A stretch of DNA of 34,641 bases from positions 1 through 34,641 of the forward strand of contig JAAYBV010000016.1 of assembly GCA_012744475.1 (NCBI GenBank), given 5' to 3'. This document shows, piece after piece, positions 30,869-34,050 of this stretch (its first letter is position 1; each line of letters begins with the position of its first letter). The translations under genes and the position numbers were made by a program. This stretch comes from Phycisphaerae bacterium (GTDB lineage Bacteria; Planctomycetota; Phycisphaerae; Sedimentisphaerales; Anaerobacaceae). The notes beneath the pieces are model-generated. The model ran no database searches. It was not told the origin of the DNA and saw nothing but the letters and a program-made list of their open reading frames with translations.

Positions 30869-30949
30869 GGAACTACCGAACAGTCGGAGCCCATGCCGGA
30901 AGGATGTGGCCAAGCGGCTCCGCACCTCGATGCAGACGGGAGATTTTGA

Positions 30950-32452
30950 ATGAGCGGTCTCTTTGGCGTCGTCTCGGAGGCGAATTGCAGCGAAACCCTC
31001 TTCTACGGCACCGACTACCACTCCCACCTGGGCACAGAGTTCGGCGGTCTGGCCGTCCTGGGCGACGAGTTCTCGCGGCGCATTCACGACCTGAGCCAGA
31101 GCCAGTTCAAGTCGAAGTTTTTCGACGACTGCCGACAGATGATCGGCAAGAAAGGCATCGGGGTAATCAGCGCCTCCGAAGAACAGCCGATCTACCTGAA
31201 CTCCCGATTCGGGCCGTTCTGCCTAGCCACCGCAGGCCTGGTGGAGAACGCCGAGGAGCTGGCCGCCCGGCTTCTGCGTAAGGGCATCTCCTTTTCGGAG
31301 GTCGGCCGCAAGGGGGTCAACACCACCGAACTGATCGGAAAGCTCATCAACCAGGGCGCCGACCTGGTCGACGGCATCGAGCGGATGTTTAACATTATCG
31401 AAGGTTCGTGCTCCCTGCTGCTGCTGACCCGAGCGGGCATCTATGTCGCCAGGGACCGGTTCGGCTACACCCCCCTGGTGGTGGGCCGGGGCAAGGGCTC
31501 ATGGGCGGTGACCAGCGAGTCCAGCGCGTTTCCCAACCTCGGGTTCGAGACCGTAAAGTACGTCGAACCGGGCGAGATTCTCCTGATCAGCGAAGACGGC
31601 ATCGTGCAGCGCAAACCCGGGCGCAAGCGTCCCATCCAGGTGTGCACCTTCCTGTGGATCTACACGGGCTTTCCGGCCTCCAGCTATGACGGAACCAACG
31701 TCGAAATCGTCCGCGAGCGCAGCGGCTGCCTCCTGGCCAGGCGGGACGGTGACACCGACGCCGACATGGTCTGCGGCGTGCCCGACTCGGGACTGGCTCA
31801 CGGACTGGGCTATGCGATGGAATCGGGCAAGCCGTTCCGCAGGCCCCTGGTCAAGTACACGCCGGGATACGGACGCAGCTACACGCCCCCTTCACAGGAG
31901 ACGCGAGACCTGATCGCCAGAATGAAGCTGATCCCCATCAAAGAGGTCATCGAAGGTCACAGCATCGTCCTGTGCGAAGACTCCATCGTCCGCGGGACCC
32001 AACTGAGGAATTACGCCATCCAGAAGCTCTGGGACTGCGGCGCCCGGGAGGTGCACGTCCGGGCCGCGTGCCCGCCCCTGCTGTTTCCGTGCCGCTTCAA
32101 CCTGTCGACCCGTTCCATCAAGGAGCTGGCGGCGCGCAAGGCCATCCGCCGGATCGAGGGGCACGACACCGTAGACGTCTCCCCGTACATCGATCCGGCC
32201 AGCGCCAAGTACGAGCAGATGGTCGAGGTGGTCCGCCAGGACCTCGGGGTCACGACGCTGCGTTACCAGACGGTGGACGACATGGTCGAAGCCATCGGCA
32301 AACCCAAGCACCAGCTTTGTCTGTACTGCTGGACGGGCCAGTGCCCTGAGTCCGCCTGCCGACGCAGCGCGATCGACATCGTCGCCACAAAGAAGCGATC
32401 CCGGCGCGCCGGGACCGTTGTCGATGACTCGGTTCAGCAGCAGCTCTGGTAG
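30950..32452 (+). CDS. Amidophosphoribosyltransferase (PurF) family protein with Ser in place of the catalytic Cys
   Basis: The 500-residue product has the N-terminal Ntn glutaminase domain (about 1-240) and C-terminal phosphoribosyltransferase domain of PurF, which makes phosphoribosylamine at the first purine step. The PRPP loop reads VLCEDSIVRGTQ (Glu343-Thr350; DDSIVRGTT is usual). Four cysteines fit the [4Fe-4S] ligands of Bacillus-type PurF: Cys232 in QVCTFLWIY, Cys381 in LLFPC, and Cys457/Cys460 in CLYCWTG. The N-terminus reads MSGLFGVV, where the family normally has MCGIxG: the nucleophile is Ser2. GGGAG precedes the ATG, and no alternative start exposes a Cys. It may use ammonia, or have another role. 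A GH51-like gene follows 62 bp on. Confidence 0.88.
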   Translation: MSGLFGVVSEANCSETLFYGTDYHSHLGTEFGGLAVLGDEFSRRIHDLSQSQFKSKFFDDCRQMIGKKGIGVISASEEQPIYLNSRFGPFCLATAGLVENAEELAARLLRKGISFSEVGRKGVNTTELIGKLINQGADLVDGIERMFNIIEGSCSLLLLTRAGIYVARDRFGYTPLVVGRGKGSWAVTSESSAFPNLGFETVKYVEPGEILLISEDGIVQRKPGRKRPIQVCTFLWIYTGFPASSYDGTNVEIVRERSGCLLARRDGDTDADMVCGVPDSGLAHGLGYAMESGKPFRRPLVKYTPGYGRSYTPPSQETRDLIARMKLIPIKEVIEGHSIVLCEDSIVRGTQLRNYAIQKLWDCGAREVHVRAACPPLLFPCRFNLSTRSIKELAARKAIRRIEGHDTVDVSPYIDPASAKYEQMVEVVRQDLGVTTLRYQTVDDMVEAIGKPKHQLCLYCWTGQCPESACRRSAIDIVATKKRSRRAGTVVDDSVQQQLW

Positions 32453-32514
32453 AGCGTCCATCGATTTGCCAAGTGACATCGCCACCCAATCGGCACAAGC
32501 CGTGGAGACCGCAC

Positions 32515-34050
32515 ATGAGACCGATCCATAGCACGAGACGCCAATTCCTGAAAGCGATGGGTGCGACCGCCGCGGCATGGAGCATCCCATCGGCCCATGC
32601 CGCCGACGCATCGGACGCGATCGTCGTCGACCCTACGCCGCGCTTCGAGCTGTCGCCGTACCTGTACATGCAGTTCATGGAGCCGTTGGGCACCACCGAT
32701 GGCTCGGTGGCCGCCGCCTGGGACTTCGGACGCGACTGCTGGCGAGAGGACCTGATCGACGTGACCCGCAGGCTGGCTCCCACGATGATGCGCTGGGGCG
32801 GCTGCTTCAGCTCCTACTACCGATGGAAGGAGGCGGTCGGTCCTCCCGAAAAGCGAGTGCCGATGCTCAATATGTGCTGGGGCGGCCTGGACACCGGGCA
32901 GGTCGGCGTGGCTGAGTTCGTGGACTTCTGCCGGCAGGTGGAGGCCGACCCGCTGATGTGCGTGAACTTCGAATCGGACGGCCGCAAGTACTGGCAGAAG
33001 GACCCCAAGGGCAGCGTCCGCACAGCCGGGCCGGAGGAAGCGGCCGAATGGGTCCGCTACTGCAACGATCCGGACGACCGGCTGCGACGCTCGCACGGGA
33101 TCGAGAGACCCTGTCCGATCCGCATGTGGCAGCTCGGCAACGAGACGTCGTACGACCGCGACGGCTACGACTGCGAAACGGCCGCCAAGCGAACCGTTGC
33201 CTTCGCCAAGGCCATGCGGCAGGCCGACCCCAAACTGACGCTGATCGGCTGGGGCGACAGCGGCTGGGCCAAACGAATGCTCGAAATCGCCGGTGAGCAC
33301 CTTCAGTACATCGCCTTCCACCACATGTTCAACCCCGATCAGGGCCGGGCCGATTCGCCCCTGCGCGACACGGAATACCGCAAAGACCCTGCGCGAACGT
33401 GGGAGCACCTGATGAACGCCCACAAGATTCACGACAACCGCATCCGCTGGATGCGCGAGCAGGTGGGCGACGACCCGACGCCGCTGGCGATGACGGAGTG
33501 CCACTTCGCCCTGCCCGGCCGCAACCGGTGTGAGGTCCTTTCGAGCTGGGCCGCCGGCGTGGCCAATGCCCGCCTGCTGAACGTCCACGAGCGGCACGGC
33601 GACCGGCTCAAGATCGCCACGCTGGCCGACTTCTGTGGGACACGCTGGCAGGTCAATGCGATCATGATACCCGTCCCCGGCGGGCCGTCCTTCATGATGC
33701 CGGTGGCGCGGGTGATGTGCCTGTACCGCCACCACAGCGGCGACCGGGGGGTCGATGTCACGCGCACTCCCGACGGGCTCGACGTCACCGCCAGCCGGCG
33801 GGCCGACCGCCTGTTCCTGCACGTGGTCAACACGAACCGCCGGCAGTCCGTATCGACGCAGATCGCGGTCGCCGGGATGCGCATCGCCTCGGGGCAAGTC
33901 TTTGAACTGACCGGCGATCCGGAACACGAGATCATCCGCGACGAGCCCAACGGCGTGGTCCTCTCGGAGAAGGCGCTGCCGCAGGATGGCCGCTGGAGCT
34001 TCCCGGCCGCATCCGTCTCGGCGGTGGAACTGGACGTCCAGACGGTTTGA
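32515..34050 (+). CDS. Tat-exported GH51-like alpha-L-arabinofuranosidase family protein
   Basis: This 511-residue protein starts with a Tat signal (STRRQFLKAMGATAAAWSIP and SAHA). A TIM barrel of the GH-A clan follows, resembling GH51 (YLYMQFMEPLGTTDG, LAPTMMRWGGCFSSYYRWKE, FVDFCRQVEADPLMCVNF). The likely acid/base is Glu210 in MWQLGNETSYD and the likely nucleophile is Glu328 in LAMTECHF. The last 110 residues form the C-terminal beta-sandwich (RADRLFLHVVNTNRRQSVS). GH51 enzymes remove arabinofuranose side chains from hemicellulose or pectin; the exact substrate is inferred. GGAG lies 8 nt before the ATG at 32515. The next gene starts 15 bp after the stop and is also Tat-exported, so the two form an operon for exported glycan processing. 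Confidence 0.85.
   Translation: MRPIHSTRRQFLKAMGATAAAWSIPSAHAADASDAIVVDPTPRFELSPYLYMQFMEPLGTTDGSVAAAWDFGRDCWREDLIDVTRRLAPTMMRWGGCFSSYYRWKEAVGPPEKRVPMLNMCWGGLDTGQVGVAEFVDFCRQVEADPLMCVNFESDGRKYWQKDPKGSVRTAGPEEAAEWVRYCNDPDDRLRRSHGIERPCPIRMWQLGNETSYDRDGYDCETAAKRTVAFAKAMRQADPKLTLIGWGDSGWAKRMLEIAGEHLQYIAFHHMFNPDQGRADSPLRDTEYRKDPARTWEHLMNAHKIHDNRIRWMREQVGDDPTPLAMTECHFALPGRNRCEVLSSWAAGVANARLLNVHERHGDRLKIATLADFCGTRWQVNAIMIPVPGGPSFMMPVARVMCLYRHHSGDRGVDVTRTPDGLDVTASRRADRLFLHVVNTNRRQSVSTQIAVAGMRIASGQVFELTGDPEHEIIRDEPNGVVLSEKALPQDGRWSFPAASVSAVELDVQTV

Follow-up and report, generated by a model that had tools for sequence, protein, structure and literature searches.

The window (the whole stretch of 34,641 nucleotides from a Phycisphaerae bacterium that was analysed here) encodes a PurF homologue, PurF', that has Ser at the position of the glutaminase nucleophile. 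This Ser is more than a point change, as the whole PurF' clade is altered. By its sequences the family forms one clade far from true PurF, and both halves of the protein are under purifying selection. The reading frame begins ATG AGC GGT CTC TTT GGC (MSGLFG), and its codons ATG AGC GGT as well as the agreement of the two nearest relatives confirm the claim of the earlier note that Ser replaces the Cys nucleophile in a PurF homologue. These two relatives, L004 (the PurF' of a named MAG, 91% identical) and L039, come from separate assemblies and carry the same ATGAGCGGT, so that Ser2 is not due to a sequencing error. A stop codon immediately 5' of the ATG makes a hidden in-frame Cys start further upstream impossible, and both of these explanations of Ser2 were thus ruled out. 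Purine-rich sites similar to the GGGAG of the window were found at the 12 PurF' starts of relatives that were inspected. The features of the gene are collected in Table 1.

Table 1. Features of the PurF' gene and its surroundings (positions in the window)
Feature	Position	Strand	Basis
Likely ribosome-binding site, GGGAG, 7 nt 5' of the ATG	30938..30942	+	sequence reading
PurF' gene, encoding a 500-aa PurF homologue whose glutaminase site is no longer functional	30950..32452	+	ORF reading
Glutaminase-like (Ntn) domain with lost active site, residues 1-225	30950..31624	+	alignment, model; limit approximate
AGC = Ser2, position of the Cys nucleophile in true PurF	30953..30955	+	sequence and alignment
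Phosphoribosyltransferase domain, residues 226-470	31625..32359	+	alignment, model; limit approximate
Predicted Fe-S ligand Cys232	31643..31645	+	alignment
PRPP loop EDSIVRGTQ, residues 343-351	31976..32002	+	alignment
Predicted Fe-S ligand Cys381	32090..32092	+	alignment
Predicted Fe-S ligands Cys457 and Cys460 (CLYC)	32318..32329	+	alignment

The NCBIfam purF model (TIGR01134) matches residues 3-464 of the window protein with 213.6 bits (199.7 bits in a second scan), short of the 350 bits that this equivalog model has as its curated cut-off, and the PurF' members listed score 155.4 to 222.3 bits. Pfam detected only glutamine amidotransferase domains, GATase_7 above its cut-off and GATase_6 below. 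The nearest solved proteins by sequence are PurFs, with that of B. subtilis first. An AlphaFold2 model of the protein (mean pLDDT 88.1, pTM 0.87; built on a 66-row alignment of the window and locus proteins) also finds PurF as its best fold matches in the PDB, 1ao0 superposing with a Z score of 42.4 and 2.3 A over 431 residues. PurF' thus resembles PurF (EC 2.4.2.14; TIGR01134; B. subtilis 1gph/1ao0, E. coli 1ecb) in its two-domain fold, its PRPP loop, the Arg and Lys of the flexible loop and the four Fe-S Cys, but has neither the Cys nucleophile nor the Arg-Tyr loop, has the Asp replaced, the Asn mostly replaced and RGTQ in its PRPP loop, and falls into a separate clade. Beta-lactam and carbapenam synthetases are among the fold matches listed for the model, and CPS1 is not among the 50 matches listed. 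These synthetases and human CPS1 are amidotransferase-derived proteins that have kept a dead glutaminase domain, CPS1 using free ammonia, but unlike PurF' they contain other synthetase domains.

In the window protein Ser2 is accompanied by the absence of the Arg-Tyr loop, by Ala95 in place of the oxyanion Asn and by Thr125 in place of the Asp of SDTE. To place these changes we took 68 different PurF' proteins from the class and phylum searches, a first search and the named MAG, of which 66 were compared after dropping two fragments (L017, with Gly, and L186, with Ser); a partial match in G163 was left out, and the comparison set comprised 36 canonical PurFs plus 6 divergent ones. Residue 2 is Gly in 41 and Ser in 25 of the 66 full-length relatives and Cys in 0, while the nucleophile Cys is present in 36/36 canonical and 6/6 divergent PurFs. 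Since Gly is commoner than Ser, the clade is better described as "not Cys" than as "Ser2". The MAFFT alignment, on which this count rests, shows no Arg-Tyr loop in 66/66 relatives. All 66 have another residue in place of the SDTE Asp; the oxyanion Asn is retained in 7 and its neighbouring Gly in all. With these catalytic residues lost, glutamine cannot be hydrolysed in the known way, and the suggestion that the enzyme has lost glutamine use is supported by the disappearance of most of the glutaminase site. The accompanying statement that all other hallmarks of the family are kept holds for the two domains, the PRPP loop and the four Fe-S Cys, but fails for the glutaminase half, from which the Arg-Tyr loop, Asn and Asp are gone.

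The second half of the protein is conserved in a different manner. The motif [DE]DS[IV]VRGT is found in 66/66 relatives, and the residue that follows VRGT is Gln in each of them versus Thr in 42/42 comparison PurFs (RGTQ versus RGTT). C232, C381, C457 and C460, which we take to correspond to the Fe-S ligand positions of B. subtilis PurF, are kept in 66, 66, 65 and 65 of the 66 rows respectively (one row ends early), and R309, R319 and K326 of the flexible loop are present in at least 95% of relatives. As the residues of the PRPP site are kept, we infer that PurF' binds PRPP and probably also carries an Fe-S cluster. Residues specific to the family are C13, D22, T29, N124 and Q351, nearly invariant among the 66 relatives and also present in six members from elsewhere, together with a new, nearly invariant stretch, GTDYHSHLGT, at residues 20-29. 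The change from RGTT to RGTQ and this new stretch are equally compatible with a changed role and with a simple use of ammonia. A new metal or His site made of C13, D22, H24, H26 and H46 was considered and is weakened by two substitutions, H24 being Asn in three Bacteroidota members and H46 being Lys in the phage member.

In our trees, which were built rapidly and carry SH-aLRT support values alone, the 66 PurF' proteins lie on one side of a branch with a support of 100 and a length of 1.81; the software cautions that long branches meet between the clades, and also about long rows in L197. Within the clade Gly and Ser have switched a few times and a return to Cys was never seen, so that residue 2 mapped onto the tree marks a separate clade outside ordinary PurF but not one that is characterized by Ser. 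The six members from elsewhere (four from records labelled as plasmids, L197 and the phage) fall inside the clade; they too have either Gly or Ser as residue 2 and share its PRPP and Fe-S residues. The mean identity of the dead N-terminal domain within PurF' is 57% as compared to 55% for the live domain within canonical PurF (300 random pairs). Three pairs of closely related members have dN/dS values of 0.04-0.07 in the N-terminal half and 0.05-0.10 in the C-terminal half.

The family has a patchy distribution that covers the phylum of the window, Bacteroidota, Clostridia and one phage. Of 298 genomes sampled from the class, 44 gave PurF' matches in profile searches (the other 254 had none at E <= 1e-90), as did 26 of 392 sampled from the phylum; the two samples overlap, and both count the genome of the window. 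Spread beyond this phylum was sampled solely via records labelled plasmid, phage or viral. Four plasmid-labelled records, of Bacteroides finegoldii, Parabacteroides distasonis, Phocaeicola massiliensis and Peptoclostridium acidaminophilum, contain PurF' with 45-47% identity. Three of these are from Bacteroidota, in support of the earlier, tentative suggestion of a wider subfamily with members in Bacteroidetes. The plasmid-labelled Bacteroidota records hold housekeeping genes and look chromosomal. A control genome, Bacteroides ihuae, gave a match to the PurF model at 1e-5 and none at 1e-40, a threshold bettered by all listed PurF' members, and therefore seems to be without PurF'. PurF' is annotated as amidophosphoribosyltransferase in two and as hypothetical protein in one of three annotated records.

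The genome of the window also has a canonical Cys-containing PurF, which is followed by purM on another contig (C91). This protein starts with ECGLFG, scores 509 bits with the purF model and keeps HRGQE, RYST, HNGN and SDTE. A second PurF was found in 59 of the 68 member genomes, 41 of them scoring above the purF cut-off, 17 at about 300 bits and one being a fragment; six of the 17 lower-scoring proteins were read and all have the Cys. One family (f88; L093, L139, L142, L145, L149, L166) has a divergent PurF of 523-542 aa with an intact Cys, a score of about 300 bits and the PRPP loop VRSTT or VRATT. No other PurF was found in the remaining nine genomes (G157, G198, G287, G293, G031, G041, G080, G587 and G591). 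Five of these are listed as at most 83% complete, and the other four (90-92%), all of them with purD, have relatives of the same family or genus with a second PurF; we read the gap in all nine as missing sequence and rejected a replacement of PurF by PurF' there. Among the 68 member genomes we found none in which PurF' clearly substitutes for PurF. Since most member genomes have another PurF and 254 of the 298 class genomes gave no PurF' match, purine synthesis does not require PurF'.

The gene neighbourhoods were read in 67 stretches from 67 genomes, in 64 of which the gene caller recovered PurF' (it missed L089, L158 and L170). In 12 of the 64 loci PurF' is preceded on its own strand by another PurF gene, in two arrangements. 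The order purF-purM-PurF' is seen in six loci of the window's own family, of which 11 genomes in the set have PurF'; two further genes stand between purF-purM and PurF' in L140 and one predicted ORF in L141. In a second family, a divergent Cys-PurF directly precedes PurF' in six loci. No PurF was present in the stretch read for 52 of the 64 loci, including the window, where PurF' lies between a divergent gene and an arabinofuranosidase-like gene. The product of the latter (32473-34050), just below the Pfam cut-off, has a Tat-like start and is likewise the neighbour in the two nearest relatives (L136, L004). Outside the phylum, pepT follows PurF' in the Peptoclostridium and Bacteroidota records (L191, L192, L193, L194) and is itself followed by gcvT in two annotated Bacteroidota records and, by eye, in an unannotated third.

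A further linkage comes from the clostridial-type contig MT836108.1 (L197), with the order purE-purC-PurF'-purF-purM-purN-methyltransferase-purO-like-purH-like. The NCBIfam models of purE, purC, purF, purM and purN score above their cut-offs and the purO-like and purH-like genes below, the latter being cut by the end of the contig. The stop codon of PurF' overlaps the first ATG of purF as a 4-nt ATGA, an upstream TTG start of purF also being possible. In the tree this PurF' sits together with the Peptoclostridium protein, on a long branch, and the label "Bacteriophage sp." of the record looks wrong because it holds a bacterial pur operon. The position of PurF' downstream of purF in 12 of 64 loci and within the pur operon of L197 suggests that it belongs to purine synthesis. 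The earlier observation that the neighbours give no hint of purine synthesis is therefore correct for the window but not for some of its relatives, which are found beside purF and purM or in a pur operon.

The phage member is encoded on the 83,131-base IMG/VR contig 3300005613_000033, which also has genes for the terminase large subunit and the portal. In the part read, bases 1-33000 (G649; L190, L196), we observed, besides PurF', an IMPDH/GMP reductase, a PRTase, G6PDH and a 5'-nucleotidase-like protein. Neither a further PurF nor an AIRS domain (PurM) nor PurD turned up in searches of the whole record, and a second scan of viral contigs gave no PurF' beyond this same contig. The contig also encodes a protein of 1057 aa (L196:10193-13366) with intein-splicing and LAGLIDADG domains and, by eye, a twin-arginine-like start.

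What could such a protein do? The explanation we favour, at close to even chances and thus tentatively, is that PurF' works alongside PurF and converts PRPP and free ammonia into phosphoribosylamine. In this reading PurF' is a PurF paralogue of de novo purine synthesis in which the N-terminal glutaminase domain has retained its fold with the catalytic site gone, and in which the C-terminal half, with its PRPP site, flexible-loop Arg and Lys and Fe-S ligands retained, would bind PRPP. It could then form 5-phosphoribosylamine using free ammonia, either beside the normal glutamine-using PurF or touching it, and where ammonia is plentiful this may save the ATP otherwise spent on glutamine. Ammonia as the nitrogen source and phosphoribosylamine as the product are presumed from the retained and lost residues. 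According to Brown et al. 2011 (PMC3261824), E. coli PurF in which Ala or Ser replaces the Cys can no longer use glutamine but still uses ammonia; together with the loss of glutaminase residues and the conservation of PRPP residues in PurF', this is why ammonia-dependent synthesis is favoured. Counting against it are the dispensability of PurF' for purine synthesis, the RGTQ and GTDYHSHLGT changes, the 52 of 64 stretches without a PurF and the pepT and gcvT neighbours in Bacteroidota.

Relatives of this kind are already known in outline from archaea. According to the same paper (PMC3261824), Crenarchaeota have a Cys-less second PurF, also named PurF', with genes near purF, for which ammonia use is offered as one possibility. 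The window PurF' is alike in having no N-terminal Cys and in being encoded in a genome that also has PurF. Many crenarchaeal proteins are described as having Ala or Val at the Cys position, versus Gly or Ser in the bacterial ones. Mlab_0150 of Methanocorpusculum labreanum, a second PurF copy in the same source (PMC3261824), has Ser for Cys as in the window, but is described there as a fairly recent duplicate of the organism's own PurF whereas the bacterial clade is deep and separate. In the literature searched, largely in excerpt, we found no description of the bacterial PurF' family.

The pairing with purF makes a regulatory or structural partner the main rival, which we consider possible though somewhat less probable than ammonia use. 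PurF' would then form mixed oligomers with active PurF and its PRPP site would act as a sensor of PRPP or nucleotides, in the way that inactive paralogues elsewhere control a sister enzyme. The co-occurrence with a second PurF (59 of 68 member genomes), the position of the genes near purF in two lineages and the ATGA overlap in L197, a coupling often seen for subunits, are all in accordance with this, and so is a dead domain as conserved within PurF' as the live domain is within canonical PurF. It is more difficult to reconcile with the 52 of 64 loci, window included, in which PurF' is away from purF, and with the phage record, where PurF' is the sole PurF-like match. A more elaborate proposal, which we regard as speculative and rather unlikely, is that PurF' is a dedicated second PurF subunit whose dead half binds a new ligand through GTDYHSHLGT and sets the rate, the nitrogen source or the feedback of the first purine step, used by Planctomycetes, Bacteroidota and Clostridia and taken up by a phage to steer the purine supply of its host.

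It is improbable that PurF' is a phosphoribosyltransferase for a different acceptor amine with a reshaped N-terminal domain. The near-invariance of the family-specific residues in 66 relatives and their retention in the six outside members would suit such an activity, as would the pepT and gcvT neighbourhood in Bacteroidota and pepT in Peptoclostridium, but the informative linkage is to purine genes and the supposed His site is not strictly kept, as the Asn at position 24 in Bacteroidota and the Lys at position 46 in the phage indicate. Finally, a functionless, decaying PurF duplicate or a sequencing error can practically be dismissed: loss of catalytic residues is how decay begins and the presence of PurF' is patchy, but the Cys, loop and Asp are missing from 66/66 proteins of one deep clade with intact PRPP and Fe-S residues, dN/dS is 0.04-0.10 in three pairs and the same codons occur in other assemblies.

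PurF catalyses the committed, feedback-controlled step of purine synthesis. A strongly conserved PurF' for which the known route of glutamine use is closed, found in several phyla and on a phage contig, implies that in these bacteria this first step may be wired otherwise than models assume, and some database entries named amidophosphoribosyltransferase, as in two of the three annotated records here, carry a doubtful function. Two other neighbours of PurF' recur. A HisF-like gene was recognized by eye in seven stretches and is adjacent to PurF' in four; we give it no weight since the adjacent cases all belong to one family and are all convergent. A flavin-reductase-like gene (one protein scanned) follows PurF' in L149, L163, L166 and L167, which represent two families.
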